Origin: Phaeocystidibacter marisrubri
Lineage (GTDB): Bacteria > Bacteroidota > Bacteroidia > Flavobacteriales > Schleiferiaceae
Direction of reading: 5' to 3'
DNA: 64,000 nt
NCBI RefSeq assembly: GCF_008933165.1
Contig: NZ_WBVQ01000001.1
Coordinates: 1,364,001-1,428,000 of the forward strand
Shown: piece after piece, positions 1 through 63,082 of the stretch
Layout of the letters: each line of letters begins with the position of its first letter
How positions within the stretch are numbered: the first letter of the stretch is position 1
Notes under the pieces: model-generated
Databases searched by the model: none
What the model was told of the DNA's origin: nothing
What the model saw: the letters and a program-made list of their open reading frames with translations, nothing else
Translations under genes and position numbers: made by a program

Positions 1-1
1 T

Positions 2-1928: not shown

Positions 1929-2130
1929 ATTCCATAATATTCAATTGACTGAAACACTTGATGATTAAATCAAATTCATCCACTGTAATTCCCCGATTAC
2001 TAGTGAATTCAAATCGCTAAATTCGCATCTGATATAGCCATTTGTTCTCTCAACAACCAACTTGTATCCAAAACGTCCATCCACTAACATTGCGTTTGGC
2101 ATCTATCGCTAACCTCTAATTACCAAATTC
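1929..2130. other. Intergenic region, 202 bp, AT-rich
   Basis: No open frame of note, no strong hairpin with a T-run and no tRNA-like structure. It should contain the promoter of the SPFH gene at 2131, but I cannot point to a convincing -33/-7 pair. Confidence 0.5.
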
Positions 2131-4064: not shown

Positions 4065-4133
4065 ACATTAGATTGATCAAAAATGGCACTTCACAACTCC
4101 GCGCTCTTGATGACTGCTTTAGGAGATAGAAAA

Positions 4134-4805: not shown

Positions 4806-4965
4806 AGTAGAGCGTTAGATGAAACAAACATACTTCGTTTTGGGAATCTCATCCATTCAAAAATCAATCCACTGATGGTTGTACGCATTGAAAGTTGGAT
4901 CATGCGGAGTTCTTAGTAGATCGTGCGAAGCTATACGTCAACCCTCGAGTTCCAACTCTCAACTC

Positions 4966-6102: not shown

Positions 6103-7589
6103 TAGAGATTAAACCATTGGTTCACTCTATCGTTCACATCGTACTCATAAGATTTATGAACGTATTCATTATGAGCAGGATGGTATTCGTATTCCTTTGC
6201 CCATTCATCTCCTTTATCCGCTACTTCTTCAATGGCTGTGCAGATGTATTCCACATCTTGATTGGTCATGCTCGGATGAAAACTCACGCGAACCCAACCC
6301 GGACGATGACTGATGTCACCACTGAGAATTTCTTCTTTAATTGAATGACTCGTTTCCATGTCCACATTCAACAAATAATGACCATAGGTTCCTGCACAGG
6401 AGCAACCTCCACGCGTTTGAACGCCGAAGTGATCATTTAACAGTCGAACTGCGAGATTGTAATGCATGCCCTCAATCACGAGAGAAACGGCACCTAATCG
6501 CTCAATATGCTGACCTGCCAACAATTGAATACGTGGATGCTTGCCCAAGCGGTTCATTGCATATTCAATGATTTCATGCTCGCGAGTCATCATATTCTCA
6601 ATGCCCATCTGCTCCTTCAATTCCACGGCAAGAGCTGCGCGAATCGTTTGAAGGAAACCTGGAGTTCCTCCATCTTCTCGCGCTTCAATATCTTCAATAT
6701 ACAAGTGTTCACCCCATGGATTGGTGTAAGTCACTGTACCTCCACCTGGATGATCGGGCTGCTTGTTTTTGTACAAACTGTTGTGAAAAACCACAATACC
6801 AGCCGAGCCTGGACCGCCCAGGAATTTATGGGGAGAAAAGAAGATCGCATCCAACCTTGCTTCTGGATCTTCTGGATGCATATCCATCTCAACGTACGGA
6901 GCACTACAGGCAAAATCAACAAAACACCATCCATTGTGACGGTGCATCAACTTTGCGATTTCGTGATACGGAGTCTCAATCCCCGTTACGTTAGAAGCCC
7001 CTGTGATGCTCGCAATCTTCCAAGAGCGATGCGCGTAATCCTCCAGGGTCTTCTTCCACGAATCCATGCAAATCAACCCTTCATTGGTACACGGAACAAC
7101 CACTACATCAGCAATGGTTTCCAACCAAGAGACTTGGTTGCTATGGTGTTCCATGTGCGTCAAGAAAACCACAGGCTTCTCATCTTCGGTCAGTTCAATT
7201 CTGTTCATGAACTTCTCGCCTGGCTTCAAACCTAAAATGCGTTGGAATTTGAGAACGGCTCCCGTCATTCCCGTGCCCACACAAAGAAGAACATCATCCT
7301 TACTTGCGTTCACGTGATTCTTGATAATCTGACGGGCTTTGGCATACGCCAAGGTCATGGACGACCCAGTGTAGGAAGTCTCGGTATGGGTATTCGCTAC
7401 AAAAGCTCCCATCTCTCGCATCTTATCTTCAATGGGACCGTACATACGCCCACTGGCAATCCAATCCGCATAAATAAGCGGTTTTGAACCGTGTGGACCT
7501 TCAATACTCAATTCACTACCAAGAGTATTCTCACGAAATTTCGCGAAGTGTTTCTCAAGTGTAGAAGTAGTCATAGGCACAGTTTCCAT
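6102..7589 (-). CDS. Class V aminotransferase-fold PLP enzyme (cysteine desulfurase/selenocysteine lyase-like)
   Basis: 495 residues, about 100 longer than a standard desulfurase. The fold marks are clear: start IYADWIASGRMYGPIEDKM, NTHTETSYTG near 67-75, MEHHSNQVSWLE near 146-157, PLP lysine Lys255 in FFSPHKFLGGPGSAG, and a cysteine-containing loop near 395-400 (TRGGCSCAGTYGHYLL). The extra length is largely C-terminal (HRPGWVRVSFHPSMTNQDVEYI onward). The start could be ATG 7589 or ATG 7574. A TATCTTTG -7-type element lies at 7611-7618 (minus strand), about 20 bp upstream. It is coupled to the downstream cysteine desulfurase by a one-base overlap. Family is certain; the substrate (cysteine, selenocysteine, another amine) is not. 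Confidence 0.88.
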   Translation of the reverse strand: METVPMTTSTLEKHFAKFRENTLGSELSIEGPHGSKPLIYADWIASGRMYGPIEDKMREMGAFVANTHTETSYTGSSMTLAYAKARQIIKNHVNASKDDVLLCVGTGMTGAVLKFQRILGLKPGEKFMNRIELTEDEKPVVFLTHMEHHSNQVSWLETIADVVVVPCTNEGLICMDSWKKTLEDYAHRSWKIASITGASNVTGIETPYHEIAKLMHRHNGWCFVDFACSAPYVEMDMHPEDPEARLDAIFFSPHKFLGGPGSAGIVVFHNSLYKNKQPDHPGGGTVTYTNPWGEHLYIEDIEAREDGGTPGFLQTIRAALAVELKEQMGIENMMTREHEIIEYAMNRLGKHPRIQLLAGQHIERLGAVSLVIEGMHYNLAVRLLNDHFGVQTRGGCSCAGTYGHYLLNVDMETSHSIKEEILSGDISHRPGWVRVSFHPSMTNQDVEYICTAIEEVADKGDEWAKEYEYHPAHNEYVHKSYEYDVNDRVNQWFNL

Positions 7590-7641
7590 ATCTGTAGGAG
7601 ATTAAGAATACAAAGATACAAAGCTCTTGGCAGGTGGTGTC

Positions 7642-9030
7642 TTACGACGCAAAAGTCGACAACTCGTTGATGAAGCGTTGCGCCAATGCCGACGCTTCCT
7701 CCAGTGAAGGTGCTTCGGTATACACGCGGATGATCGGCTCTGTATTGGATTTTCTCAAGTGTACCCAGCTCTTTTCAAAGTTGATCTTAACGCCATCAAT
7801 GGTGCTTACGTCCTCGTTAGAGTAGCTTTCAGCGGCCTGAGCCAAGATGGCATCAACATCTAGATCTGGAGTGAGTTCAATCTTTTCCTTAGCCATGAAA
7901 TAATCAGGATAAGAAGCTCTCAATTCTGAAGTCTTCATACCTGTTTTGGCCAGATGTGTAAGGAAGAGTGCTATACCCACGAGGGAATCTCTACCATAGT
8001 GCAATTCTGGATAGATGATACCGCCATTGCCTTCGCCGCCAATGACAGCATTCACGGCTTTCATTTCAGTCACAACATTCACTTCGCCCACGGCTGAAGC
8101 GGAATACGACCCACCGTGCTTTTCGGCTATATCTCTCAACGCTCTGGAAGAACTTAGGTTGCTCACCGCCGCTCCACTTCTTCTGCCAAGAAGGTAATCT
8201 GCAACGGCTACCAAAGTGTACTCTTCACCGAACATAGATCCATCTTCACAAATAAGAGCTAGACGATCTACGTCTGGATCCACCACCAAACCCACATCAG
8301 CTTTGGTCTCTTTCACTTTGGCCATAATATCCCCCAAATGCTTCTCCAATGGCTCTGGATTGTGAGGGAAAATTCCGGTTGGCTCACAATACAATTCAAT
8401 TGTATTCTTCACCCCTAGCGCTTTCAACAAAGGAGGAATAGAGAGTCCTCCTGTACTGTTCACAGCGTCAATAGCCACGGTAAAGTTGGCCGCGGTAATC
8501 GCTTCAACATCTACATCTTCTAAAGCTAGAATCTGATTGATGTGATCGGCAATCGCATGCTCATAGGTAGTGAGGGTTCCCAATTCTTCAACAGCCGCAA
8601 AGTTCATTTCACCAGCCTCTGCAATGCGAAGAATTTCTGCGCCATCTTCTGCATTCACAAACTCTCCCTTTTCATTGAGCAGTTTGAGCGCATTCCAATT
8701 GATGGGATTGTGAGAAGCGGTTAGGATGATACCTCCATCTGCACCAAATTCTGGAACCATTACCTCAACGGTTGGAGTGGTCGATAATCCTAAATCTACC
8801 ACATCAATTCCCAACCCGAGTAAAGTGGAACTCACTAAATTGGAAACCATGGCACCGCTAGGACGAGCGTCTCTACCGATCACCACTTTTAGTCGACCTG
8901 CCCCTCTCCGGTTGCGCAACCACGTCCCATAAGCGCCTGCAAATGCAACGGCATCTAAGGGTGTGAGTGCATCACCGGGAGCTCCGCCAATTGTTCCTCT
9001 AATTCCAGAAATTGATTTGATGAGTGTCAT
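7642..9030 (-). CDS. glmM: Phosphoglucosamine mutase (alpha-D-phosphohexomutase family)
   Basis: 462 residues with all four phosphohexomutase sites: the phosphoserine loop TASHNP with Ser106, the metal-binding loop DPDVDR at 251-256, the sugar loop GGEGNGG at 331-337, and the phosphate-binding loop RKSNTEPIIR near 424-433. GlmM converts glucosamine 6-phosphate to glucosamine 1-phosphate for UDP-GlcNAc and cell wall synthesis in the cytosol. The sugar loop GEGNG differs from the GEQSGH of proteobacterial GlmM, so phosphomannomutase or phosphoglucomutase activity is an alternative; in Bacteroidota such proteins usually serve as GlmM. The gene lies 72 bp downstream of tex on the same strand. Confidence 0.82.
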   Translation of the reverse strand: MTLIKSISGIRGTIGGAPGDALTPLDAVAFAGAYGTWLRNRRGAGRLKVVIGRDARPSGAMVSNLVSSTLLGLGIDVVDLGLSTTPTVEVMVPEFGADGGIILTASHNPINWNALKLLNEKGEFVNAEDGAEILRIAEAGEMNFAAVEELGTLTTYEHAIADHINQILALEDVDVEAITAANFTVAIDAVNSTGGLSIPPLLKALGVKNTIELYCEPTGIFPHNPEPLEKHLGDIMAKVKETKADVGLVVDPDVDRLALICEDGSMFGEEYTLVAVADYLLGRRSGAAVSNLSSSRALRDIAEKHGGSYSASAVGEVNVVTEMKAVNAVIGGEGNGGIIYPELHYGRDSLVGIALFLTHLAKTGMKTSELRASYPDYFMAKEKIELTPDLDVDAILAQAAESYSNEDVSTIDGVKINFEKSWVHLRKSNTEPIIRVYTEAPSLEEASALAQRFINELSTFAS

Positions 9031-9102
9031 ATATATGCTATTAGTCTGTTTGGTTTTTGACTCTATCGACCACCAAAGGTCGCAACTAGAGCTGTATTCT
9101 CC

Positions 9103-11232
9103 TTATTGTTTTGCCAACAATCGCAATCCGATGCGCTTTCTCGCTTCATCCACTTCTTCCACGCGCACTAGAACGTGATCTTGAACGGAGAGCACATCGC
9201 TAGGATGGGCTACATAGCCATCTTTCAATCTAGAAATATGGATCAGACCATTTTCCTTAATTCCGATATCCACAAAGGCTCCAAAGTCAGTTAAGTTGGT
9301 CACCATACCCGGCAATTCCATGCCCACATTGAGATCAGCCATGGTAGAAATATTGGCAAACTCGAGCACTTTAGCTGCTCCTCGAGGATCACGCCCCGGC
9401 TGCTTCAATTCGCTCACAATGTCTTGTAGCGTTGGCAAGCCCACATCACTGCTCACATACTTTTTCAGGTCGATAGAATCAATGAGCAATTTATCCTTAA
9501 CGAGATCCGCAATAGAAACTTTGGCATCTGCAGCCATCTGCTTCACCAATGTATATCGCTCAGGGTGAACCCCGGTGTGATCCAACACTTCAGATGATTC
9601 TGAAACTCTTAAAAATCCTGCGGCTTGCTCATAGGCTGAAGCCCCTAATCTCGGAACTTTAAGAAGCTCTTTTCTAGAGGTAAAGCCTCCGGTTGCGGTT
9701 CTATACTCTACAATGGATTTGGAAAGAGCGGGACCAATACCCGCGATGTGAGAAAGCAAGGTATGGCTAGCTGAGTTCAATTCGATTCCTACCGAGTTTA
9801 CACATTTTTCAACCACACGCCCCAGTCTTTCTTCTAGTCGTTTGGCATCCAAATCGTGTTGATATTGCCCCACACCAATGTGTTGGGGTTCGATTTTCAC
9901 CAATTCAGCCAAAGGATCTTGCAAGCGGCGCCCGATACTCACGGCCCCCCTTACTGTCACATCCTTATCTGGAAATTCCTCTCTCGCCAACTTGGAAGCA
10001 CTGTAGATAGAAGCTCCATCTTCATTCACCACAAATACACGCAACTCGCGATCAAATCGGATGGATTTCACCAATTGCTCAGTCTCCCTGCCCGCAGTTC
10101 CATTTCCGATAGCCACGGCTTCAATTTGATAGGCCCCCACCAAAGATTTGATTTTCTTTTGGGCAGCCCCCCATTCTTTCTGGGGAGGATGTGGATAGAT
10201 GTTCTCGTTGTGCAAAAGCGTACCGTGTTCATCCAGACAAACCACCTTACAACCTGTTCTAAAACCAGGATCAATAGCCAGTGTGCGAACGCCTCCAATG
10301 GGCGGTTGTAATAGCAAGGGCTCCAAATTTGTCTCGAAGACATCAATTGCCGCTTCCTGCGACTTCTCTCTCAACTGAGCAAGAACCTCCGTCGACAAGC
10401 TGGGATGAAGCAATCTTTTCCATGCTTCCATCGCCGCAGCAAACACGAAATCCGACACCTCACCATGCCCTTTGACGATGTAGTGCTCCATGGCATTTTC
10501 TACCGATTGTGCATCCAACAGCGTAGACATTGAAAGAACTCCCTTATTTACTCCTCGTTCTATAGCTAGAAAGCGGTGGGATGGAATTCGTTTAATGGGC
10601 TCATCGAAGTTCAAGTAATCGCGAAAGACCTGTGTTTCTGCATCATTTTCATCAACACCTCTCTTCTTTTTCGATTGAATTAGCCCATATCTCTCCAATG
10701 ATTTACGGAGAGAATTTCGAAGGGCTATTCGCTCGTTTACCCATTCTGCAATGATATCAGAAGCACCGCTGAGAGCATCTTCATAGGCCACTCCATTCGG
10801 CATAGCGCGTCTGACCACGGTTTCTAAATCTTGATTCTTTTGAGCCATCAATTGCTTCGCAACGGGCAAAAGTCCCAATTCAATAGCAGCATCGGCTTTC
10901 GATTTGCGCTTGGGCTTAAACGGAAGGTAGATATCTTCTAAGCGAGCAATATCCCATGTCCCATTCAGATTTTCGAGCAACTCATCCGTGAGTAAATCTC
11001 GCTCGGTCAAACTCTTTATTATGGCCGTTCTTCGTTTGTCTACATCTGACAATCGCTTCCATTCATCAATAAATCTACCGAGTTCAAGTTCATCCATTCC
11101 TCCGGTTACCTCTTTCCGATACCGCGCCATAAAGGGAAGCGTAGCCCCACCTTCAATCAAGGAAACAATAGACTCAACTCGTGATTTCGGAAGCATCAAC
11201 ACTTCCGAGGCTATATCAATCTTCGACTTCAC
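9103..11232 (-). CDS. tex: Tex family RNA-binding transcription accessory protein
   Basis: 709 residues, in the usual range. Order of parts: helical N-terminal region with FMARYRKEVTGGMDE and LEDIYLPFKPKRKSKA, an RNase H-like YqgF core starting near LAIDPGFRTGCKVVCLDEHG, helix-hairpin-helix segments (HIAGIGPALSKSIVEYR), and a C-terminal S1 domain (GMVTNLTDFGAFVDIGIKEN). Tex is a conserved cytosolic nucleic-acid-binding protein linked to transcription and, in some species, toxin expression; its exact role is unsettled. The start is GTG at 11232, since an in-frame stop lies shortly upstream and no ATG intervenes. A TATCTTTG element at 11252-11259 (minus strand) is a plausible -7 box. Confidence 0.93.
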   Translation of the reverse strand: MKSKIDIASEVLMLPKSRVESIVSLIEGGATLPFMARYRKEVTGGMDELELGRFIDEWKRLSDVDKRRTAIIKSLTERDLLTDELLENLNGTWDIARLEDIYLPFKPKRKSKADAAIELGLLPVAKQLMAQKNQDLETVVRRAMPNGVAYEDALSGASDIIAEWVNERIALRNSLRKSLERYGLIQSKKKRGVDENDAETQVFRDYLNFDEPIKRIPSHRFLAIERGVNKGVLSMSTLLDAQSVENAMEHYIVKGHGEVSDFVFAAAMEAWKRLLHPSLSTEVLAQLREKSQEAAIDVFETNLEPLLLQPPIGGVRTLAIDPGFRTGCKVVCLDEHGTLLHNENIYPHPPQKEWGAAQKKIKSLVGAYQIEAVAIGNGTAGRETEQLVKSIRFDRELRVFVVNEDGASIYSASKLAREEFPDKDVTVRGAVSIGRRLQDPLAELVKIEPQHIGVGQYQHDLDAKRLEERLGRVVEKCVNSVGIELNSASHTLLSHIAGIGPALSKSIVEYRTATGGFTSRKELLKVPRLGASAYEQAAGFLRVSESSEVLDHTGVHPERYTLVKQMAADAKVSIADLVKDKLLIDSIDLKKYVSSDVGLPTLQDIVSELKQPGRDPRGAAKVLEFANISTMADLNVGMELPGMVTNLTDFGAFVDIGIKENGLIHISRLKDGYVAHPSDVLSVQDHVLVRVEEVDEARKRIGLRLLAKQ

Positions 11233-11564
11233 TGCAATGGTTGTTTGGGCTCAAAGATAGGAAGGGAGATGGGAGTTCTTCGTTCGGACTTTAATCTACT
11301 TTGTTCTCCACATGATGTAAGAAGATGTATGACGCTTCATGATTGTTAAGATGCCTATGAACCTGGCTCGCTCGTGATATAGAACTAAAAACACACCCAC
11401 TGAACTCGGAACCCACCACTCCGAACCAATTCCTCTTCCAAAACGTTATTAGTATAGAAACCCAAAAACACCTGTTCATTACTCTGTTGAAAATCGATTG
11501 AGTAACAGTACATTTGCCGCACATGAAAAAGATACCTTGAGTGAGGTTCTAATACAGTTCATTC
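11233..11564. other. Intergenic region, 332 bp, divergent promoters of tex and the TPR gene
   Basis: No gene found. The left end holds the tex -7-type element (11252-11259, minus). The right end holds TTTG at 11513-11516 and TACCTTGA at 11533-11540 on the plus strand, 16 bp apart, a near-consensus Bacteroidota promoter for the TPR gene at 11565. A 77-codon minus-strand frame at 11291-11524 has no signal, domain or neighbour support and is treated as chance. Confidence 0.5.
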
Positions 11565-51957: not shown

Positions 51958-52554
51958 ATGGCCTCAGAACGCGAAGAACTCAATGCGGAATATTGGGACA
52001 GCAGATATGTAGAAAAGACGTTTGGTTGGGATATTGGATATCCCTCCCCAGCGCTCATTGAGTTTGCCTCTCAATTTAATGTAGACACGAAAATCCTCAT
52101 TCCGGGTTGCGGCCATGCCTATGAAGGTCAGTGGCTATGGGAAAACGGTTACACCAACATTCACCTGCTCGACTTCAGTTCAACGGCTAAAGAGCGCTTC
52201 TTAGAACGCGTTCCATCTTTTCCTGAAGAACAGTTTTTTGTCGGTGATTTCTTTGAGCATAACGAAACCTACGAACTGGTACTGGAACAAACGTTCTACT
52301 GCGCTCTCCAACCAGAACTGCGCGATTTGTATGTGCGCAAAATGAGAGAACTCCTTGCTGAGGGAGGAGCTTTAGGGGGACTTCTATTCACCTTTCCCCT
52401 CACCGAAAGTGGCCCACCCTTTGGTGGATCAATGGAAGAATACAAACGTAGGTTCTCTCCTTACTTCGAGATCAAAACTTTGAGTGAAGCCCACAACAGC
52501 ATACAACCTCGCAGTGGAAAAGAGGCCTTTTTCCACGTCGTAAAAACCGCTTGA
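51958..52554 (+). CDS. TPMT-family SAM methyltransferase
   Basis: 198 residues. The TPMT (thiopurine S-methyltransferase) signature is clear: LNAEYWDSRYVEKTFGWDIG at the start, then the SAM-binding motif ILIPGCGHAYEGQWL, then FVGDFFEHNETYELVLEQTF, and the family segment LRDLYVRKMRELLAEGG. These proteins methylate sulfur, tellurium or other nucleophiles; the substrate here is unknown. It starts two bases after rlmD stops and its stop codon overlaps the next frame by four bases. Confidence 0.85.
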   Translation: MASEREELNAEYWDSRYVEKTFGWDIGYPSPALIEFASQFNVDTKILIPGCGHAYEGQWLWENGYTNIHLLDFSSTAKERFLERVPSFPEEQFFVGDFFEHNETYELVLEQTFYCALQPELRDLYVRKMRELLAEGGALGGLLFTFPLTESGPPFGGSMEEYKRRFSPYFEIKTLSEAHNSIQPRSGKEAFFHVVKTA

Positions 52555-52586
52555 AAACGTATCTTTCCGGCAGAAATTCAACCAGC

Positions 52587-53090
52587 ATGAGCACGAAGCG
52601 TACGATAGTAATGGACGAAGCAACGATTCGAAGAAAAATTGAACGAATTGCTTGGGAAGTGTACGAACGTCACATTGAAGAAGATGTGATTTATCTAGTA
52701 GGCATTACCGGTACCGGTTACCTACTTGCAGAAATGCTCGGTGCATCTCTACGTCAAATCAACGCTCCTAAAACTGTGCTTTTAGAGCTGAATATGGACA
52801 AGAGAAATCCCTTGGGTGAAAAGTCTCTTCTCGGCGAACCTAAAGACTTGACCAACTGCTCTGTGGTGGTGGTGGATGATGTACTCAACAGCGGATCTAC
52901 CTTAATCTACGGCGTTCAGCACATTCTAGAGCAAGAGGTGAAACGCTGTACAACCGCAGTACTTATTGATAGAAATCACAAGCGTTTCCCTATTAAGGCA
53001 GACGTGAAAGGGCTTTCACTGTCTACATCGCTTCAAGAGCATGTAGAGGTTGATTTAACCTCCACATCTCCTGCAGCCTATCTTCAATAA
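52587..53090 (+). CDS. Phosphoribosyltransferase, PyrR-like
   Basis: 167 residues from ATG 52587; an alternative ATG at 52551 would overlap the methyltransferase stop by four bases. The PRPP-binding motif CSVVVVDDVLNSGSTLIYGV near 100-120 is clear, and the rest (IYLVGITGTGYLLAEML, LLIDRNHKRFPIKADVKG-like C-terminal part) matches PyrR-type bifunctional uracil phosphoribosyltransferases/regulators. PyrR can bind pyr leader RNA, but no pyr operon is visible here, so regulation is not claimed. Confidence 0.82.
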   Translation: MSTKRTIVMDEATIRRKIERIAWEVYERHIEEDVIYLVGITGTGYLLAEMLGASLRQINAPKTVLLELNMDKRNPLGEKSLLGEPKDLTNCSVVVVDDVLNSGSTLIYGVQHILEQEVKRCTTAVLIDRNHKRFPIKADVKGLSLSTSLQEHVEVDLTSTSPAAYLQ

Positions 53091-54352: not shown

Positions 54353-54425
54353 GACTCGATAGCTCAGTTGGTAGAGCAATACACTTTTAATGTATGGGTC
54401 CAGGGTTCGAGCCCCTGTCGGGTCA
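54353..54425 (+). tRNA. tRNA-Lys (anticodon TTT)
   Basis: Cloverleaf: acceptor GACTCGA/TCGGGTC with discriminator A; D-arm AGCTCAGTTGGTAGAGC; anticodon stem-loop ATACA-CTTTTAA-TGTAT giving anticodon TTT; T-arm CAGGG-TTCGAGC-CCCTG. The gene has no encoded CCA (CAC follows the discriminator). Confidence 0.95.
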
Positions 54426-54429
54426 CAAA

Positions 54430-54484: not shown

Positions 54485-54568
54485 GCCCGGGTGGTGAAAT
54501 TGGTAGACACGCCATCTTGAGGGGGTGGTGACCTTATGGTCGTGCTGGTTCGAATCCAGTTCCGGGCA
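54485..54568 (+). tRNA. tRNA-Leu (anticodon GAG)
   Basis: 84 nt with long variable arm, as expected for Leu. Acceptor GCCCGGG/TCCGGGC with discriminator A; D-arm TGGTGAAATTGGTAGACACG; anticodon stem CCATC/GGTGG around TTGAGGG with anticodon GAG; variable arm TGACCTTATGGTCG; T-arm GCTGG-TTCGAAT-CCAGT. Confidence 0.94.
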
Positions 54569-54575
54569 CTCTCAT

Positions 54576-54603
54576 ATCCTGACAATCGTCAGGATTTTTT
54601 TTT
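54576..54603 (+). terminator. Terminator of tRNA-Leu
   Basis: Perfect 8-bp stem ATCCTGAC/GTCAGGAT (54576-54583 with 54588-54595), AATC loop, then a run of nine T. The next gene is convergent and ends at 54613. Confidence 0.9.
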
Positions 54604-54612
54604 GCCCCTACT

Positions 54613-55317
54613 CTACGTAATCCAATTGTACAATCCACCGCTCAACATGGCTAGCCCAAAGCTGAGTAAGGTTCCGATTAAGACGTATTCCGTCTTTATT
54701 CTGTGATCTTTCTGAGAAAGGTCGCCGAAGCGGAAAATGGATTTGGCTGCCAGCAGGAAACCGATGCCCTGCCAATAGTTCAAAACCACAAAAGCAAACA
54801 CAAACACCCTTTCCAACATGCCAATGATCAGTCCTGCTTTGCGCATGGATTCATCCATCTTAGAATCGGTGAGTTCATTCAACACTGAATTCAACACCAT
54901 GCGAATCAAAACCGAACTCACATAGGTAGCCAATAGCAATCCAATAGCCAGTGCGTAAATCGACTCCAAGGATAACTCGATGTTTGAAAAATTCACTCCA
55001 TCTCCATAAACCACAGCGGCTATCACCATCAAGTGAGCAAGCTGATCGAGAAGAAACAGAGCTACTGCCCTCTTCTTTGAATAGAATCGATCTTTTAGAA
55101 AGTCTATTCCAAAATGGGATGCGCCGATGACGGGTATCATCCAAAGTGTATCCACGCTAAACCCAGTGAGCAAGGCCACCAAAATCATATGTACCAGAAC
55201 GTGATAAACTCGGAATACGAGCCCTTTCCCCTTCTTTCTTCTCTTTTCTACCCATTGAGTCGGCTGAAGAATAAAGTCGCCCAGCAGGTGCGCTAAAACG
55301 AGTTGCAGTACAATCAT
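54613..55317 (-). CDS. DUF3307 membrane protein
   Basis: 234 residues with about six hydrophobic segments. The N-terminal part LVLAHLLGDFILQPTQWVEK followed by YHVLVHMILVALLTG and HFGIDFLKDRF is the DUF3307 pattern (conserved H-x-x-x-D and H motifs in a membrane context). Function is not known. Its start overlaps the stop of the SatD-like gene by four bases (ATGA), so they are translated together; the SatD/DUF3307 pair is found in other bacteria too. Confidence 0.82.
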   Translation of the reverse strand: MIVLQLVLAHLLGDFILQPTQWVEKRRKKGKGLVFRVYHVLVHMILVALLTGFSVDTLWMIPVIGASHFGIDFLKDRFYSKKRAVALFLLDQLAHLMVIAAVVYGDGVNFSNIELSLESIYALAIGLLLATYVSSVLIRMVLNSVLNELTDSKMDESMRKAGLIIGMLERVFVFAFVVLNYWQGIGFLLAAKSIFRFGDLSQKDHRIKTEYVLIGTLLSFGLAMLSGGLYNWIT

Positions 55318-55916
55318 CTGAAGTGCTTTTCCATTTCGTCTTCAAAATACTTCATCGCATCCAGAATTTCTGTCATTCCGGTCCTAGACATTTTGATACT
55401 CCACGCGCTTTGTGAAATTCCCAATGCCGATGCCGCTTCCACCTGAGTAAGCCCTTCGTTCTTCAGACGGAATAAAACGGCCTCCGACTGATTTGAAGTC
55501 CATCGATCTATGACCACATTCATCAATCCAAAAAGCACACGCATTTGGGTGTTTATGGATTCATGCGGACAATGAAAGGACATTATAGTCTTCTTTTTGT
55601 CAAGTCCTCTCCCCGAAAAGATAAATGCTTGTCCATTGGATTCGTGAAGAACGTCCCTTCTCTTATCAACGTCTCCAACCCCAATAGATATGCGAGCGTC
55701 TCGACCATTTTCAACGCGTACCGCAGCTCTGATCTTCAATGCCATTTTAAGCGCTTCGCTAGGCTTGCAAATGAGCTGGAAGGAATCTCCACGAAAGATC
55801 TCCCAATCCCTTCCTTCAACCCCGTGGTCGTTTAATTCCGACTTTAAATAATTGAGCCATTCATCGTGTTGGGATGCACTCGACTTAACAATATCTCCTG
55901 TGAGTATGGCGTACAT
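55314..55916 (-). CDS. SatD family protein: cyclase-like N-terminal half plus HTH
   Basis: 200 residues from ATG 55916 (TTG 55928 gives four more). The N-terminal YAILTGDIVKSS, then WEIFRGDSFQLICKPSEALK and VENGRDARISIGVGDVD, has the order of short motifs seen in class III nucleotide cyclase catalytic domains (metal-binding Asp, F-x-G-D, and a later strand with IGVG). The C-terminal 60 residues end in LTQVEAASALGISQSAWSIK, a helix-turn-helix. So the protein may sense or bind a nucleotide and regulate transcription, for instance of the partner DUF3307 gene. Cyclase activity is not shown. The SatD name is by family resemblance. Confidence 0.68.
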   Translation of the reverse strand: MYAILTGDIVKSSASQHDEWLNYLKSELNDHGVEGRDWEIFRGDSFQLICKPSEALKMALKIRAAVRVENGRDARISIGVGDVDKRRDVLHESNGQAFIFSGRGLDKKKTIMSFHCPHESINTQMRVLFGLMNVVIDRWTSNQSEAVLFRLKNEGLTQVEAASALGISQSAWSIKMSRTGMTEILDAMKYFEDEMEKHFR

Positions 55917-55953
55917 AATTATATTCAAATACGTAAATAATTATAAATATAAG

Positions 55954-55984
55954 CAAATATGTATATATCTAAAGGTATAACCAA
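55954..55984 (-). promoter_or_regulatory. Candidate promoter of the SatD-DUF3307 pair
   Basis: On the minus strand TTG (complement of 55982-55984) is followed after 20 bp by CATATTTG (complement of 55954-55961), one mismatch from TAnnTTTG. Predicted transcription start is about 30 bp before the ATG at 55916. Confidence 0.5.
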
Positions 55985-55985
55985 T

Positions 55986-56018
55986 AAAAATCCCCCTCAC
56001 GAAGCGCAAGGGGGATTT
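55986..56018 (-). terminator. Rho-independent terminator of the giant adhesin gene
   Basis: AAATCCCCCT at 55988-55997 pairs with AGGGGGATTT at 56009-56018, 11-nt loop. On the minus strand TTTTT follows the stem. It lies 26 bp after the adhesin stop. Confidence 0.85.
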
Positions 56019-56043
56019 CGTCCTAAGCTAACTACTACATTGC

Positions 56044-59000
56044 TTAACGAACAACTACCCAGCGGATAGTTTCTGTTCCAGCAGAGCTACGTACAATAAC
56101 GTTGTACATACCTGCAGGGAGTTCAGTAGAATTCAAGCTGAACTCGTATTCGATTTCAGAAGTTAGACTTCCAGAGTAAACATTAGCGATAACTGCACCT
56201 CTCGCATCGCAAACAGAGATGACAACATCCACATCTTCACCAGCGTGAATCGACAAGGTGGATAGGTCTCCTGTTGGGTTAGGATATAGTGCAGTGTGGA
56301 ACATGTGAAGATCTAGGTGATCATCGTCCTCCACTTTAGCATTGTCTGTACATGGTCCGAGGTAATCGCCGTGACCCAGGTGTGCAGGAACTGCATTTGA
56401 GCTTACGCTGATAGTACCCCAAGTGTACTCGTTCTTCTTTCTGCGAAGGTGACACAATACAACTTTGTTTGGATTGTTAGGATCACGAGCATCAACCACG
56501 TTCACGTGAATTGAGCGTTGAACGGAACAACCATTGGCATCCGTTATAATTACCGTATATGTGGTAGCAACTTGTGGACTTGCTGTAACCGACGCAGTGT
56601 TGGTTGCGCTAAGGCCTGTTGATGGGAACCACTGATAGGTGTACCCTGCAACCCCTCCTGTAGGAGTAACATCCAAAGTCACAGACTGAGGACCATACCC
56701 TAAGAAGATAGTACTATCAAGCTGACCAGCAACCAATTGGTAAGGAGTCATTGCCTTTGACGCAGCAAGAGGAGTTGGTTCGGTAAGCACATAGCTGTAA
56801 GAGTAAGTCTCACCATTGCCATCCGTAACCACTACGTCGTAAGTTCCTGCAGTCAAGCCACTAACATCTTGTGTAGATGCTCCGTTGCTCCAAGCGTAAG
56901 CGTAAGGCTCACAAGCTCCACTAACCGTCAAGTCGATAGAACCGTCCGCTGAACCGTTACAGCTCACTCCGTAGCCATTGTAATCAGACACGACTTCTGC
57001 AACAACAAGTGGTGACTTAACAACCGTCACAATAGCAGTACAAGTACTGATGTTGCCATTCACGTCAACCGCAGTCAATGTCACCTCATTGTCGCCTTCA
57101 TCTCCACAATCAAAGCTTGAAGGAGAAACACTCAAGGATGCAATTCCACAGTTATCCGATCCCGATGCGAATACATCTGCATAAGTGATCCATGCTGATC
57201 CTGCTTGAGGAAGATCTACAATAACATCTTGACAAATAATAATTGGAGCGATTTCATCCACCACCTCAACAGAAGCAGTTGCCGTGGATGTATTACCTGC
57301 AGCATCCACTAGAGTAAGAACCACTGATTGGGTTCCCACATTCGAACAGTCGAATGAACTCACGTCGATGGTTGCAGATACAATTCCACAGTTGTCGTAT
57401 GATCCACCGTCAACCTCAGCTACCGAAATTGAACCACTTCCGCTTGCATCCAATTGAACAACAAGACCAGAATTTACAACCGCTGTTGGAGCAGTGTTAT
57501 CAATTACAGTTACTGAAGAAGTTGCAGAGCTGCTGTTACCAGAAGCATCGGTTACCGTCATCGTTACTGGAACAACAGTTCCTGCATCTGCACAAGAGAA
57601 TGTAGAAACATCGAGGCTGTACGAAACAATGCCACAGTTATCTGAGCTGTTGTTATCAATATCAGATGCAGAAATACTCGCTTGACCATTTGCATCCAAC
57701 GCTACAGTGATAGGATTCACTGCAACCACTGGTGCCATGTTGTCAATTACGTCAACAATCGCAGTAGCGGTCGTCACGTTACCCGCAGCATCCGTAGCTG
57801 TAATCGTTACGTTTGATCCAGTGCTTGTCGCATAAATTGGAGCCGAGAAATACTTGGTTTCCCCTCCTCCGGTGTTGTACGTTCCGTGCCAGATAAACTG
57901 AGCTGGAGCCATTGAAGACAATCCGAAGCCCCAAGGACCAAACCCGATGTTCCCGAGGTAAAGTGGATTCGTGTAATTGTTCCAACCCGTAGAACTCACT
58001 TGCCAATCTGCTCCGTTTGTAACGAGAGTTTGAGTTCCATTGGCAAACTGGAATCCACCAGAAAGCTGGAATTTACCCAAGAACATTTCTGGTCCACCTA
58101 CGTCCGTTGCTTCTACATGGATGTAGTAATCCTGACCTGCAGATAGGTTTGAAGTGAAGTTGTAAGGAATAGACCAGTTACTTCCAGATCCTACATACGT
58201 ACCTTGAACGTTATCATCGGTAGAAATGTAGAAGTTAAAGGTGTTATCAACGGTCAATGTTGATGTCAACACACCAGGACCACCTGAACCGTTTACAGCT
58301 GGAACGGAGTTACAATCAAACTGAGTTTGATCTAGGCTCAATGTTACTCCGCTACAATTATCAGTAGCTGAAGCGACTACATCTGAAGTTGTAATGCTCG
58401 CACTACCCGAAGCGTCCAATGCAACGGTAATGCCTTGCGCTACCACTACTGGACCTGTTTGATCGAGCACCGTTAATGTAGTTGTACAAGAGCTGCTCGC
58501 ACCTTCATCATCAGTTACCGTGAGTGTAACTGCATGTGTACCTAGTCCAAACGGACCAGCCGGAGAAATGCTCAATGTAATTGGATCTCCATCTGGATCG
58601 TAAGATCCGCCGTTAAACGCCTGAGCCAATACAAGTGCTTCACAATTTGCATTTGCTGGAACTACACCTGGCGTGCAAACAGCTACTGGAGGGTTATTAC
58701 AGAAGCTGAACTGGTCGTTGATCGAAATCTGACCGGTCAAATCTGTAGTGTTGCCAAAATTGTCAGTAATGCGAACAGTAATAGTAATGGTCTGATCAAC
58801 ATCAGAACAGTTGTACGATGATCTACCAACAATGGCTACCGTTTGAATACCACAGTTATCATTCAAATTCGACAACACTGAGGATGGATTGATGGTCACT
58901 GTACGATTGCTATTCAATGAGAATGCACCTCCTACAAATGAAGCTGTTGGCGCAGCATTATCAACTACAGTTACTACGGATTGCTTTTGAGTTTGATTAC

Positions 59001-62000
59001 CGTGAACATCGGTTACCGTTACAGACACAGTTTGTGGACCTGCGGTATTACAATCAAACTGAGACCTGCTCAAAGTAGTACTGGCAATTCCACTCGCATC
59101 GTAAGAGCTATTAATTAGCATGGATGGAGTTACAGAAGCCTGACCATTGGCATCCAAGTACACTGTAATGTTCTTCACATCAACACTTGGCGGTGTAACG
59201 TCTTGAATATTGAAAGTGATGTTCGCAGTAGAGGTAGAAACCGTGTTGCAATCGCCTGCTGTTCCACCGTATTCAACAACGTACCCTGCAATTGACCCCA
59301 CTTGATTCGGGAAGTCATTCCATCTACCATCTTCCCAGAAATGGGCATAATCTTCATTGCCACCGGCATCGTTAGGTTCAGCACCTGTCCATCCGTTGAA
59401 CATACCATTCACCGCATAACCACCAGAAATAGAAGTTGGGTAACCGAAGAAGTAATTGTACGTCACTTGGTAGAACTGAGTTCCGGCCTCTGGACCTGTC
59501 ACCCATTTCCAGTTACCTTCTTGAGCAGCATCGCTTGCGCCCATCCATCCCTGACCATTGAGCTTTCCTTTTACAAACTCATTCTCTGATGAGGATGTTA
59601 CGGTTACCAAGTAACCTTGCATACCGTTATACGTTCTTTGCTCTGCCGCCGCTTTTGCTTGTGTCCAGCTAATACCCGGCGAAGCAACAAACTCGTAGAA
59701 GTGACCATTACCACTGTAAACAATGGTTCCGTCGTCTCTCTTCACTACGTAAGAAGCCGTCACTGTTTGACCCGCAGCACTGGCAGGTGTAAACGTAAAC
59801 GTTCCGTTGTAGTTATCTACGATAGTACCAGAACTTGGATTTGTAACGGCATCTACTTGAAGGGATTGACCGTAAGGATCTACATCATTGCCAATTAGAT
59901 CAGCAGCTGAGAAAGTGAACGATTGTCCAGGGCTTGCATTAAACGTGAACGAATCATCATTAGCACTGATAGGAAGAACATCAACTACTGTCACTTGAGC
60001 AACCGCTGAATGTGAATTTCCAGCCGCATCTAGAACCGTTAACGTCACGGGAACAACAGTTCCTCCATCATTACAATCAAATGTTGATTTATCAAGTGAA
60101 GTACTTACTACTCCACAGTTGTCGGTGGAACCACCATCGATATCAGCAACGGTGATGGAAGCTTGACCATAGACATCCAGTGTAACCGTCGTATTGCTTG
60201 CAACTGCAATTGGCGAAATCGTATCATTTACGGTGACTACCGCTGTACCTGTTGCAGGGTTACCATTGTTATCTACAACTGTTAATGTAACCGTATTTGC
60301 TCCTATGTCACTACAATCAAATGAAGTCACATCTAGAGATAAGCTCGCAATTCCACTTGCATCTGAAGAGTTGTTATCTACATCTGCTGGTGCAATGCTA
60401 GCTTGACCACTTGCATCAACATAAACGTTGATATTTTGTGTCGCTACGGTTGGAGGAGTTACATCAATAACATTGAATGTGATCGTACCTGTGGATGGCG
60501 TGTTTTGACAATCACCAGGCATTCCACCATATTCTACAATGTATCCTTTGATGGCACTTACGTTATTCGGCCAATCATTCCAATAACCAATATCCCAGTA
60601 ATGAGCGTAGTGCTCGGTGCCTCCAACATTATTGGGTTCACCTGGATACCAGTTGTGGAACTGGCCACTCACCGTACCGTTGTTCCAGAATACAGTACCC
60701 GCTTCTGGACCAGTCATCCATTTCCAAGTACCTTCACTGTCAACATCACTTGCACCAATCCATCCTTCTCCTTGAAGCTTTGCTTTCGCAAATACATCCT
60801 CAGACATGGAAGTGATGGTAGCCAAATAACCCTGTTTACCATTGTAAGTCATTCCTTCGGCAGCGGCTTTTGCATTGTCCCACGTAATACCTGGATCACT
60901 TACAAACTGGTAATAGTGTCCATTATCTGCAAATACAGTGGTTCCATCCGCACGCTTAACCACATAAGTTGCCGTTACGGTTTGAATCGAAGTTCCTGAA
61001 GGCGTGAAAGTGAAAGTTCCATCGTAATTGTCAACGAGTGTTCCTGAACTCGCCGCTGAAACTCCGTCAACTTGAAGAGTTTGGCCGTAAGGATCAACAT
61101 CATTGCCTACTAGATCAGCCACAGAGAACGTAAAGGTTTGTCCTGGCCCTGCATTGAACGTAAACGTATCATCATTAGCATTGATAGGAAGAACATCATT
61201 CACCGTTACTTGAGCGGTGGCTGATCCAACCTGACCATTCACATCTGTAACCGTCAATACAACAGGAACCGTTGTTCCCGCCTCTTGACAAGAGAAATTA
61301 TACTGACTCAAAGAGCGAGAAAGAATGCCACAAGCATCCGTAGAACCGGCATCGATGTCATCTTCTGTAATAGAGGCATGTCCAAAGGCATCCAGTTGAA
61401 CACTAATGTTGTTCACAGAAACAGATGGAAGAACAGAATCAAGAACATATACATTGGCTGTACCTGTGTTAATATTTCCATTCACATCTTCAATAGTAAG
61501 AGTGACGGTAATGGCTTGCCCCACATGACTGCAATCAAAATGAGTTTGATCAATGGACATGCTCGCAATTCCACAGTTATCAGAACTACCATTATCAACA
61601 TCAGCTACGGAGATGGATGCATTTCCAGAAGCATCTAGATTTACATATGCATCCTTGGTAACCACCATTGGTGCGAGATTGTCTTCTATGAATACGTTCG
61701 CACTAACATTCGTTACATTGCCTGCATTGTCGGTTCCAGTAATGGTTACATTGGAACCTGGAATAACAGGATAGATTGGAGCTGTAAAATACTTGGTCTC
61801 TCCACCTGTAGTATTCCAAGTACCTTCCCAAATAAGCTGAGCCGGAGAATATCCAGCCGTAGCACCGTTCCAAGGAGATTGATTTCCTGCGTCTCCAACA
61901 AAGTAAGGACTAACGTAGTTGCCCCAACCTGTTGAGCTCACTTTCCAATCTGAGACATTCGTACGAAGGGTTTGAGTTCCGTTTCCGAATTGGAAGCCTC

Positions 62001-63027
62001 CTGTTAATGCAAAGTTGCCCAGGAAAAACTCTGGTCCGCCTTGGTCGGTTGCTTTAATATGAATATAATAAGTCTGACCTGCAGCAAGATTTACCGAACC
62101 TGAATAGGATGAATTCCAATTGGTACCGGATGTCACTACCGTTCCTTGTACGTTGTCATCTGTAGAAATGTACCAAGTGAATTCATTGTCAACCGTCATT
62201 GTACCGGTAAGTGTACCTGGAGTTGCAGCGCCCACATTACTGGCTAAGTCATTGCAATCAAAAACAGATTTTGAAAGCGAATAGGTAGGATTTGGATCAC
62301 AATTGTCACCAAATGCAGCCATGACATCAGCAGGAACAATCACTGCTTGTCCATTTGCGCCAAGAGAAACCGTAATGTCTTGTGGGGTGATCGCTGGACC
62401 ACTGCCGTCTACAACCGTTAAAGTTGTTGTACAAGAAGATGTCCCCCCTTCGTCATCCGTAACATTCAAGGTGATGTTGTGAGTTCCAACACCAAATGGA
62501 CCTGAGGGAGAAATGCTAATAGAAACACTACCACCATCAGGATCGTATGAGCTATTGTTGAATGCTTGAGCACTCACATTCACTTGACAATTCTGATCTG
62601 CTGATACGGTTGCCGACACACAGTTAGCCACAGGAAGCACATTATTGGTACATGCACTATTGGGATCTGTGATAGTAATAGAGGTAGTACGGGAGAAACG
62701 AAAAGATGACGACGGCCTTGTTAGAACACCTCCTGCATCCACAACCGTGTATTGTAACGAATAGGTACCACCAACATCGGAGCAATCAAAAGTGGTTTGA
62801 CCGGTAATAAGTGCACCGGAATAAAATGAAAAAGGCCCACAATTATTAGGGTCCGTTGTCATCAAGTCATCAATAGTAACAGTGACTGTACCATTGGCAT
62901 CTAAGGGTAAGTTGATCGCCGTTTCATGAGGCGTTACGCATTGCGCGTACGAATGCGAGCTCATAAAGAAAAGCAAGCCGACAAACACCGTCAGTGCCTT
63001 TCGAATAATTCGGGTAGAATTGCGCAT
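56044..63027 (-). CDS. Giant T9SS-secreted adhesin with two C-type lectin domains, HYR-like and SprB repeats
   Basis: 2,327 residues from ATG 63027, the start that gives a proper signal peptide (ALTVFVGLLFFMSSHSYAQ). Order: HYR-like/Ig-like repeats; a module with TVDNEFTWYISTDDNVQG (62.2-61.7 kb); repeats; cadherin-like domain (ANDDTFTFNAGPGQTFTFSV) and C-type lectin domain 1 (about 60.93-60.51 kb, WIGASD, EPN, WND, VEYGG); a second cadherin-like plus lectin domain 2 (59.71-59.25 kb); a second DDNVQG module (58.3-57.8 kb); more repeats; a SprB repeat (about 57.0-56.8 kb, SDYNGYGVSCNGSADGSIDL); a PKD-like domain (YTYQWFPSTGLSA); and a type A sorting domain (LYPNPTGDLSTLSI to the end). EPN and WND suggest Ca2+ and mannose-type sugar binding. 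It is a large surface or released adhesin, with no catalytic domain. Confidence 0.9.
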   Translation of the reverse strand: MRNSTRIIRKALTVFVGLLFFMSSHSYAQCVTPHETAINLPLDANGTVTVTIDDLMTTDPNNCGPFSFYSGALITGQTTFDCSDVGGTYSLQYTVVDAGGVLTRPSSSFRFSRTTSITITDPNSACTNNVLPVANCVSATVSADQNCQVNVSAQAFNNSSYDPDGGSVSISISPSGPFGVGTHNITLNVTDDEGGTSSCTTTLTVVDGSGPAITPQDITVSLGANGQAVIVPADVMAAFGDNCDPNPTYSLSKSVFDCNDLASNVGAATPGTLTGTMTVDNEFTWYISTDDNVQGTVVTSGTNWNSSYSGSVNLAAGQTYYIHIKATDQGGPEFFLGNFALTGGFQFGNGTQTLRTNVSDWKVSSTGWGNYVSPYFVGDAGNQSPWNGATAGYSPAQLIWEGTWNTTGGETKYFTAPIYPVIPGSNVTITGTDNAGNVTNVSANVFIEDNLAPMVVTKDAYVNLDASGNASISVADVDNGSSDNCGIASMSIDQTHFDCSHVGQAITVTLTIEDVNGNINTGTANVYVLDSVLPSVSVNNISVQLDAFGHASITEDDIDAGSTDACGILSRSLSQYNFSCQEAGTTVPVVLTVTDVNGQVGSATAQVTVNDVLPINANDDTFTFNAGPGQTFTFSVADLVGNDVDPYGQTLQVDGVSAASSGTLVDNYDGTFTFTPSGTSIQTVTATYVVKRADGTTVFADNGHYYQFVSDPGITWDNAKAAAEGMTYNGKQGYLATITSMSEDVFAKAKLQGEGWIGASDVDSEGTWKWMTGPEAGTVFWNNGTVSGQFHNWYPGEPNNVGGTEHYAHYWDIGYWNDWPNNVSAIKGYIVEYGGMPGDCQNTPSTGTITFNVIDVTPPTVATQNINVYVDASGQASIAPADVDNNSSDASGIASLSLDVTSFDCSDIGANTVTLTVVDNNGNPATGTAVVTVNDTISPIAVASNTTVTLDVYGQASITVADIDGGSTDNCGVVSTSLDKSTFDCNDGGTVVPVTLTVLDAAGNSHSAVAQVTVVDVLPISANDDSFTFNASPGQSFTFSAADLIGNDVDPYGQSLQVDAVTNPSSGTIVDNYNGTFTFTPASAAGQTVTASYVVKRDDGTIVYSGNGHFYEFVASPGISWTQAKAAAEQRTYNGMQGYLVTVTSSSENEFVKGKLNGQGWMGASDAAQEGNWKWVTGPEAGTQFYQVTYNYFFGYPTSISGGYAVNGMFNGWTGAEPNDAGGNEDYAHFWEDGRWNDFPNQVGSIAGYVVEYGGTAGDCNTVSTSTANITFNIQDVTPPSVDVKNITVYLDANGQASVTPSMLINSSYDASGIASTTLSRSQFDCNTAGPQTVSVTVTDVHGNQTQKQSVVTVVDNAAPTASFVGGAFSLNSNRTVTINPSSVLSNLNDNCGIQTVAIVGRSSYNCSDVDQTITITVRITDNFGNTTDLTGQISINDQFSFCNNPPVAVCTPGVVPANANCEALVLAQAFNGGSYDPDGDPITLSISPAGPFGLGTHAVTLTVTDDEGASSSCTTTLTVLDQTGPVVVAQGITVALDASGSASITTSDVVASATDNCSGVTLSLDQTQFDCNSVPAVNGSGGPGVLTSTLTVDNTFNFYISTDDNVQGTYVGSGSNWSIPYNFTSNLSAGQDYYIHVEATDVGGPEMFLGKFQLSGGFQFANGTQTLVTNGADWQVSSTGWNNYTNPLYLGNIGFGPWGFGLSSMAPAQFIWHGTYNTGGGETKYFSAPIYATSTGSNVTITATDAAGNVTTATAIVDVIDNMAPVVAVNPITVALDANGQASISASDIDNNSSDNCGIVSYSLDVSTFSCADAGTVVPVTMTVTDASGNSSSATSSVTVIDNTAPTAVVNSGLVVQLDASGSGSISVAEVDGGSYDNCGIVSATIDVSSFDCSNVGTQSVVLTLVDAAGNTSTATASVEVVDEIAPIIICQDVIVDLPQAGSAWITYADVFASGSDNCGIASLSVSPSSFDCGDEGDNEVTLTAVDVNGNISTCTAIVTVVKSPLVVAEVVSDYNGYGVSCNGSADGSIDLTVSGACEPYAYAWSNGASTQDVSGLTAGTYDVVVTDGNGETYSYSYVLTEPTPLAASKAMTPYQLVAGQLDSTIFLGYGPQSVTLDVTPTGGVAGYTYQWFPSTGLSATNTASVTASPQVATTYTVIITDANGCSVQRSIHVNVVDARDPNNPNKVVLCHLRRKKNEYTWGTISVSSNAVPAHLGHGDYLGPCTDNAKVEDDDHLDLHMFHTALYPNPTGDLSTLSIHAGEDVDVVISVCDARGAVIANVYSGSLTSEIEYEFSLNSTELPAGMYNVIVRSSAGTETIRWVVVR
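57780..58640 (-). repeat. Dispersed duplicated module in the adhesin, C-proximal copy
   Basis: The stretch encoding DDEGASSSCTTTLTVLDQTG and TVDNTFNFYISTDDNVQGTY is a second copy of the segment at about 61730-62600. The two are offset by 3,942 bp (1,314 codons, a multiple of three) measured at CGTTRTCATCKGTAGAAATG. Confidence 0.7.
59170..61640 (-). repeat. Tandem in-frame duplication of a cadherin-like + C-type lectin module
   Basis: Two copies inside the adhesin: about 60430-61640 (N-proximal) and 59170-60430. Matching points are 1,215 bp apart at one end (the stretch AGGAAGAACATC at 61186 and 59971) and 1,263 bp at the other; both are multiples of three. The difference is a 16-codon insertion in the second lectin domain before its EPN motif. 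Confidence 0.75.
61730..62600 (-). repeat. Dispersed duplicated module in the adhesin, N-proximal copy
   Basis: Partner of the copy at 57780-58640. It encodes DDEGGTSSCTTTLTVVDGSG and TVDNEFTWYISTDDNVQGTV, and ends in a segment with YFVGDAGNQSPWNGATAGYS that differs from the other copy. Confidence 0.7.
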
Positions 63028-63082
63028 AATAAAATAGGTTAGAGTGGTTGCTACATCAATAGACATCGATGAGTCTTTTTCG

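Follow-up and report, generated by a model that had tools for sequence, protein, structure and literature searches.

A mobile two-gene module pairing a SatD-like protein of predicted cyclase fold with a DUF3307 membrane protein, with an operator-like repeat array at its promoter

In Phaeocystidibacter marisrubri (Bacteroidota; Schleiferiaceae), a gene for a SatD-like protein overlaps the start of a gene for a membrane protein that carries a DUF3307 domain. The two genes lie in a stretch of 64,000 nucleotides (contig NZ_WBVQ01000001.1, positions 1,364,001 to 1,428,000; hereafter the window, in whose own numbering all positions are given). The pair is a horizontally mobile two-gene module, and satD is preceded by a recognizable, private and fast-changing operator-like array; both observations are new. 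The SatD-like protein is predicted to combine a nucleotidyl-cyclase fold with a C-terminal helix-turn-helix (HTH), and we favour, with a probability of about 0.55, a reading in which it would act as a nucleotide-gated autorepressor that restrains a membrane effector, the two forming a toxin-antitoxin-like or defence-like module. The features on which this reading is built are as follows.

55314..55916, reverse strand: satD-like gene, 200 amino acids, with a cyclase-fold N-terminal domain (about residues 1-120) and a C-terminal HTH (about 141-199), from the list of open reading frames (ORFs), the predicted fold and conservation
55557..55916, reverse strand: predicted cyclase/palm-fold domain, with invariant Asp8 and Gly43-Asp44 and near-invariant Arg75, Ser12 and Gln47
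55320..55496, reverse strand: predicted HTH domain, recognition helix at about 167-179, from sub-threshold Pfam HTH matches, the helices of the model and operator covariation in the family
54613..55317, reverse strand: gene of the partner membrane protein, 234 amino acids, all-helical model
54958..55311, reverse strand: DUF3307 N-terminal domain of the partner (PF11750), an optional part that is not found in short partners
54616..54870, reverse strand: C-terminal membrane domain of the partner, the constant part, which has no Pfam match in the window protein
55917..55984, reverse strand: operator-like array directly before the satD start, with 28-bp units at 55984-55957 and 55956-55929 and a partial third at 55928-55917

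A first-pass annotation of this DNA had read the protein as a possible cyclase-fold sensor fused to an HTH, on the strength of motifs in the order of class III cyclases. All of these motifs lie in the ORF at 55314-55916 (for which the ORF list also holds an alternative upstream TTG start at 55928): YAILTGDIVKSS at residues 2-13, FRGDSFQL at 41-48 and ISIGVGD at 76-82, followed by the HTH motif QVEAASALGISQSAW at 158-172. Structure prediction and comparison bear out the proposed fold. The AF2 model, built on 54 aligned sequences with a mean pLDDT of 94.7, runs beta-alpha-beta-beta-alpha-beta-beta-alpha-beta and then into the HTH helices. The leading rows of a Foldseek search of the PDB are class III adenylyl cyclases (best E 1.5e-3, none below 1e-3); the first 16 rows include the Burkholderia cUMP synthase 7r65, of the Pycsar type, as well as Cas10/Cmr2 and GTP cyclohydrolase III (GCH III), and GGDEF domains are also among the rows. 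With VIA, the scores were Z 9.2 to Cmr2 (root mean square deviation 3.4 over 123) and Z 9.2 to GCH III (2.6 over 105); judged by title, each of the 50 rows listed belongs to the cyclase/GGDEF/Cas10 superfamily. A profile of 27 N-terminal domains, searched against 177,635 PDB sequences, finds Rv1900c of Mycobacterium tuberculosis at E 0.0018, other cyclases following from 0.07, and this alignment is in register at the first-strand Asp, at the hairpin Gly-Asp and at a D-x-R before the next strand. The predicted fold of the N-terminal domain is that of the class III cyclase/GGDEF/Cas10 palm.

The residues of the nucleotide site are conserved, so that neither of the two outcomes named by the same annotation as fatal to its reading, a fold unrelated to cyclases and a family lacking conserved nucleotide-site residues, has come about. 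In a set of 138 relatives, mostly 24-40% identical to the window protein, Asp8, Gly43 and Asp44 are present in all 137 that cover those positions, Ser12 and Arg75 in 136 each, and Gln47 in 135. In the reading favoured here, the domain most likely binds a metal-nucleotide at Asp8 and Asp44. With the class III nucleotidyl cyclases (Rv1900c, Ma1120, 7r65) SatD thus has in common the predicted palm fold, the motif order and the two metal Asps; it differs from them in its C-terminal HTH and in a transition-state Arg that is not conserved, and any activity of SatD is putative.

According to the parts of PMC11323703 that deal with it, SatD takes its name from a streptococcal acid-tolerance operon. 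The window protein has no match to the Pfam SatD model, PF16264, at E<=1, and for this reason it is called SatD-like and is not filed as a member of that family. Full-length homology with the SatD family, that of the sat operon of Streptococcus mutans, is established through relatives in the same GTDB family: ORFs of two genomes (G003 and G022) lie above the PF16264 cut-off, and their matches to the window protein have E values of 1.7e-33 and 1.1e-30; PF16264 matches 11 of the 27 N-terminal domains at E<=1 (best 2e-13). The HTH of the window protein reaches no Pfam cut-off; HipB is among its weak matches, at E 0.05 and above. Relatives were found in 15 of 60 genomes of the window's GTDB family (its own genome counted) and in 110 of 395 Bacteroidota genomes, where the weakest matches cover the HTH only and presence across the phylum is patchy. 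A tblastn search with the window SatD, the window partner and an Agrobacterium SatD gave no match in 50,697 phage records, and the DNA of two plasmid-borne pairs matched nothing in E. coli genomes. The passages on SatD in PMC11323703 give no fold, operator or pairing, and in the open PMC literature searched no paper was found that connects SatD to DUF3307 or to a cyclase fold, or that describes the array. The cyclase-like DUF2652 proteins are likewise uncharacterized and cytosolic, with conserved Asps and with some members from Bacteroidetes (PMC4886424, as far as its available text goes); they were considered as a prior description of SatD and rejected, being a different family; SatD does not occur in that text.

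The coupling of satD to a membrane protein by an ATGA, and the recurrence of the two as neighbours, had also been claimed at first pass, and both hold. The satD stop codon (TGA, 55316-55314) overlaps the start of the partner gene at 55317, and the partner scores 92.2 bits with PF11750, for which the cut-off is 23. A scan by the partner motif confirmed 574 stretches, of which the best 80 (from 80 genomes) were taken together with two viral contigs as 82 loci; in all 82, satD lies directly upstream of the partner, most commonly with the four-base overlap (43 of 82). Seen from the side of SatD, a partner is present in 23 of 23 loci (some of them duplicates), and at 20 further loci it was found 19 times on a first pass and the twentieth time with a profile of the C-terminal domain. 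Partners of only 124-160 amino acids, in which the DUF3307 part is undetectable, occur in Agrobacterium, in Sphingomonas parapaucimobilis and in genome G219, so DUF3307 is the added domain and the C-terminal domain the constant part. In the latter, ten residues (G162, I165, G166, E169, R170, K192, R196, E210, Y211 and G215) are identical in 138 of 138 sequences; the DUF3307 part keeps a set of His, Asp, Gln and Lys residues (H10, D14, Q18, H39, H68, D72, K75, D91, Q92 and H95), possibly a metal site in the membrane. As modelled (pLDDT 89.8), the partner is helical throughout and has no evident separate soluble ligand domain. A fold relation to known structures was considered and none is claimed, since no PDB match is better than E 1.3 and none reaches a Z of 8. 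On the phage side, family phrog_2470 matches the DUF3307 part of the partner. The DUF3307-type membrane proteins of phages, of this family and ORF187 of Ralstonia phage RsoM2USA (PMC8504454), have about 119-134 amino acids and are too short to include the C-terminal partner domain. These phage proteins are possibly a counter-measure or an unrelated use of the domain.

Upstream of satD, palindromic half-sites recur every 28 bp, or sometimes every 29, their arms alternating every 14 bp. When each upstream region is matched with itself, the best lag is 28 or 29 for 125 of 137 satD genes, as compared with 15 of 507 control intergenic regions (taken from the same loci, with everything within 1.5 kb of satD left out) and 24 of 495 dinucleotide shuffles. 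The threshold score of 24 of 40 is equalled or exceeded by 125 of 137 satD genes, by none of the 507 controls and by seven of the 495 shuffles. Thirty of another 40 loci could be used, the others being already in the set or too short; the lag was 28 or 29 in 23 of these 30 and the score at least 24 in 21. The window array has two and a half units and a lag-28 self-match of 29 of 40, a score equalled by none of 2000 dinucleotide shuffles at lags 28/29 and by one of 500 at any lag from 10 to 45. Plasmid members score 25-32 in Vibrio, Salinivibrio, Pseudoalteromonas, Agrobacterium and Segatella and on pEC34A. Upstream of satD in G008, a species of the window's genus (loci L003/L189), there stands a CCTCCAACC-like repeat with a period of 16 bp instead of 28.

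The half-site varies by lineage (TATAAG, TATTAC, TATCGG, TATCTG, TATATGC and others; a class could be called in 96 of 137 upstream regions), and it tends to follow the recognition helix. Where N-terminal domains are 35-45% identical, 66% of the 32 pairs with helices at least 80% identical have the half-site in common, and 0-2% of the others; at 45-55% identity the values are 55% of 66 helix-similar pairs and 3-7% of the others. These identity-binned counts use pairs that are not independent, and the fairer test is that on 21 non-redundant loci, in which, at a helix threshold of 70%, the half-site was common in 5 of 15 pairs versus 10 of 195, a difference as large in 22 of 5000 permutations. 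Because the arrays are lineage-specific and tend to follow the recognition helix in this manner, the HTH is probably functional and would bind DNA, in keeping with the regulatory part given to it at first pass. In the 3.35-Mb genome of the window, the motif occurs twice, 28 bp apart and both times in the satD promoter. When operator palindromes were sought in eight genomes, seven of nine exact sites in five genomes lay at satD (two of two in G101, two of four in G022 and a single one each in G463, G369 and G133), and the other two, both in G022, lay inside reading frames; there were no exact sites in those searched genomes that have other half-sites, and a pattern meant for G278 is uninformative, as it had no match even at the satD of G278 itself. 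The motif is therefore nearly private to satD in the genomes searched, and an array that is both lineage-specific and nearly private suggests that SatD is probably a dedicated autoregulator. The sequence TAnnTTTG, the Bacteroidota -7 element, is found in the last 70 bp before satD in 76 of 108 cases (a count made without a control). Repression would be expected over activation because the array overlaps the promoter.

Mobility is seen in several settings. Plasmids of 3.77 kb from E. coli and Klebsiella have the pair as their chief cargo, next to replication and mobilization genes and one hypothetical protein of 51 amino acids; a 4.4-kb relative also carries an HTH gene and a YdgH/BhsA/McbA-like gene. 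Cryptic small plasmids with the pair include L025 (NC_019077.1) and L026 (NZ_LR890364.1). A Pseudomonas plasmid of 10 kb carries the pair as well, and so do an element that encodes an integrase, an excisionase and a primase-helicase (L033), a phage contig whose genes include head, protease and holin-like ones (L034), and the IMG/VR contigs L226 and L227. In genomes taken as Flavobacterium by synteny with named loci (gene names read by eye), the pair lies between pyrD and mvaB at four loci (L152-L155), and at three others (L219-L221) pyrD and mvaB are adjacent and no pair was found between them, as at empty sites. Of seven Flavobacterium stretches compared, four did not hold pyrD and mvaB together and were uninformative. 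In G129 a distant pair lies one gene further on, between mvaB and guaB; its SatD is 24% and its partner 36% identical, and its half-site differs by eye. Flanks in this comparison are 79-86% identical, and the two positions speak for independent insertions. In G008, the pair follows the same genes as in the window on one side and different ones on the other, and SatD (33%) and the partner (38%) are less alike than the flank proteins (41-84%). At a Chryseobacterium-type locus (L048), SatD is 45-50% identical to the SatD of relatives and the partner 66-82%; satD alone was possibly exchanged there.

Some proteobacterial plasmids carry the pair among defence genes. On a Sphingomonas insulae plasmid it stands between Gabija (GajA 1.5e-228, GajB 2e-236) with ThsB (7.2e-98) on one side and a Pycsar set (PycC 4.3e-183, E2 1.4e-97, PycTM 9.7e-31) on the other. 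This plasmid (L146, NZ_CP048421.1) thus has a dense defence island at positions 1-11265, in which Gabija, a ThsB-like TIR protein, an HTH gene with an ImmA-like peptidase, the SatD pair and Pycsar share about 11 kb. On an Enterobacter plasmid the pair adjoins Gabija (GajA 3.7e-235, GajB 1.5e-232), and on an Agrobacterium pAt plasmid AbiEii (2.5e-99) is about 6 kb away. RelE/ParE-type genes are near the pair at the P. fragi plasmid locus, and restriction-subunit and Rpn-type annotations at the V. lentus locus. The annotation of the plasmid loci of two Salinivibrio, S. parapaucimobilis and Segatella shows no defence genes.

The favoured mechanism can be put together from these elements. SatD would be a one-component regulator whose cyclase-fold domain binds a metal-nucleotide at Asp8/Asp44 and whose HTH binds the private 28-bp repeats over its own promoter, probably cooperatively, so as to hold the operon down; the partner would be a membrane protein with a constant C-terminal membrane domain and usually a DUF3307 domain in front of it. 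If the nucleotide state were to shift, as in infection or in energy or acid stress, or if SatD were lost, repression and perhaps a direct restraint would be lifted, and the freed partner would act on the cell envelope by a toxin-antitoxin or abortive-defence logic. Fold, site residues, array, privacy, HTH covariation, pairing and mobility in this scheme were computed; from them we infer that SatD binds a nucleotide and DNA, that it represses and does not activate, that the partner is harmful and that the pair has a role in defence. Of the first-pass proposal of a nucleotide sensor-regulator acting with a membrane protein, the fold, the HTH, the site residues and the constant pairing stand, and the binding of nucleotide and of DNA stays putative. 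The layout is that of type II toxin-antitoxin systems such as HipBA, in which likewise the genes overlap and a first, HTH-bearing protein has operator-like repeats at its own promoter (in the window pair, these are computed and putative); SatD differs by its predicted nucleotidyl-cyclase fold, its multi-helix membrane partner and its 28-bp arrays. In the available parts of PMC11323703, satD of S. pyogenes is essential by transposon sequencing (Tn-seq) in three emm types and present in 178 of 249 genomes. A harmful partner under restraint would make satD just such an essential yet accessory gene, provided that the streptococcal locus has a partner. A more specific form of the favoured mechanism, which we hold as tentative and somewhat doubtful, would make SatD-DUF3307 an undescribed mobile abortive immune module, whose palm-fold sensor or synthase guards a nucleotide or second-messenger pool, polymerizes or stacks on the private 28-bp array to silence the operon and frees the membrane effector when a phage disturbs that pool; the phage proteins with DUF3307 only (phrog_2470) would then perhaps be counter-measures.

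A number of observations weigh against the autorepressor reading. The array is absent from 12 of the 137 satD genes, and 9 of the 30 further loci are under the threshold; the genes without it include satD of G008 and the plasmid members L145, L146 and L148, and L026 is likewise below the threshold. In the search for exact sites, a reversed control pattern had one, three and two matches in G463, G369 and G133, so that in those genomes the position at satD, and not the number of sites, is the evidence. Over 478 locus pairs SatD has for the most part diverged as fast as its flanks or nearly so, with bin medians of 57-92% for SatD and 57-93% for the flanks; in the 60-80% bins SatD is some ten points lower. 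Bacteroidota chromosomes usually place the pair among varied genes that are not for defence (names by eye), and PADLOC matches near 20 chromosomal pair loci in this phylum are not clearly above those of matched controls: at 1e-15, 89 families were matched by 129 neighbours of the pair loci and 41 by 130 neighbours of 20 control stretches from the same genomes, where families (25 of them listed) are not independent proteins, case proteins lie up to 5.0 kb and controls up to 4.3 kb from the centre, and 9 of 138 case proteins are left out. Among the matches listed, the controls include a Cas1, and the cases type I restriction and mads-like proteins. Two further points on this side, the position of the Weeksellaceae pairs before purine genes and the state of a catalytic Arg, bear directly on the alternatives.

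The alternative that survives best, although we regard it as rather unlikely, is that of a signalling enzyme pair. SatD would be an active nucleotidyl cyclase or a GCH III-like enzyme, the product of which silences the membrane effector (the logic of Panoptes) or activates it (that of Pycsar and CBASS), and the array would serve only to autoregulate dosage. The invariant metal Asps, the presence of the cUMP synthase and of Cmr2 among the nearest folds, and the layout of a palm-fold gene with a membrane-protein gene are all as this model would have them, and the essential-but-accessory satD fits inhibitory signalling. Class III cyclases use an Arg for the transition state, however, and the corresponding position 103 of SatD is not conserved, being R in 51 and E in 64 of 138 relatives (register by eye). 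A metal/phosphate site that is kept, together with a cyclization Arg that is not, indicates either a sensor of nucleotides or an enzyme of an unusual kind, and on account of this Arg 'sensor' is better supported than 'cyclase'. The all-helical partner, with no evident separate soluble ligand domain, also speaks against an enzyme pair, as does the fact that neither window protein matches any PADLOC family at E<=0.1, PycC and PycTM thus included. Panoptes (OptS/mCpol with OptE/2TM-beta) resembles the pair in being a two-gene operon with the palm-fold protein first and the membrane protein second, and in a suspected antitoxin-like behaviour. According to the portions of PMC12657218 and PMC12657230 on this point, a membrane effector can have a palm-fold synthase for its antitoxin, and OptE/2TM-beta is harmful without catalytically active OptS/mCpol. 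The window pair, on the other hand, has no beta-barrel in its partner model, adds an HTH and an operator-like array, and is without a PADLOC match. Pycsar (PycC with PycTM) is similar in joining a class III cyclase-like protein to a membrane partner, and is the system that the pair adjoins on the Sphingomonas plasmid; the HTH and the array of SatD are not known as parts of Pycsar.

An improbable alternative is a regulator of nucleotide pools, in which SatD would sense a purine or pyrimidine nucleotide and adjust the partner, as a transporter or exporter, together with nearby nucleotide genes in some lineages. In 28 of 28 Weeksellaceae loci (L043-L099, by eye) the pair lies 19-79 bp before purC, followed by purF, a position that could mean a purine role and from which the satD array may also drive the purine genes; it is perhaps a domesticated state. 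The pair is also near pyrD and guaB in Flavobacterium, and the window holds a phosphoribosyltransferase-like gene at 52551-53090 (by eye). Elsewhere, though, the neighbours are diverse, the flanking genes in Flavobacterium run opposite to the pair, and the nine exact operator sites are either at satD or inside reading frames. That the cyclase-like domain is a degenerate dimerization scaffold without ligand, as in regulators of the PucR/CdaR type, and SatD a plain autorepressor or antitoxin, would agree with the HTH and array evidence and with the variable Arg, but is very improbable, as the metal Asps, Ser12 and Gln47 stay invariant or nearly so across such divergent proteins, a constraint not called for by a scaffold.

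Around the pair, the window has the following features.

55987..56019, reverse strand: terminator-like hairpin between the upstream gene and the pair, by consensus match only
54576..54595, reported on the forward strand only: terminator-like hairpin between the partner gene and tRNA-Leu, by consensus match
54485..54569, forward strand: tRNA-Leu(gag), adjoining the pair
54353-54426: tRNA-Lys, near the pair

Bounded by two terminator-like hairpins and with tRNAs adjoining, the pair looks like a closed unit. No att-like exact repeat of the 3' end of tRNA-Leu is present within the window. The gene upstream of the pair, at 56044-63066 on the same strand, encodes a repetitive protein of 2340 amino acids that is, in a reading by eye, of a surface type.

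The analysis brings together two widespread families, one known by a DUF number and the other by a streptococcal operon, as a single module with a predicted fold, site, operator and partner. A SatD that does sense nucleotides would be a transcription regulator of cyclase fold that has kept the catalytic metal ligands; if the pair is defensive, it would add a cyclase-fold branch, regulated at the promoter, beside Pycsar and Panoptes. The module is also a candidate explanation for the presence of an essential satD in some S. pyogenes strains and its absence from others, and the natural pairs of half-site and recognition helix may offer a start for a specificity code.

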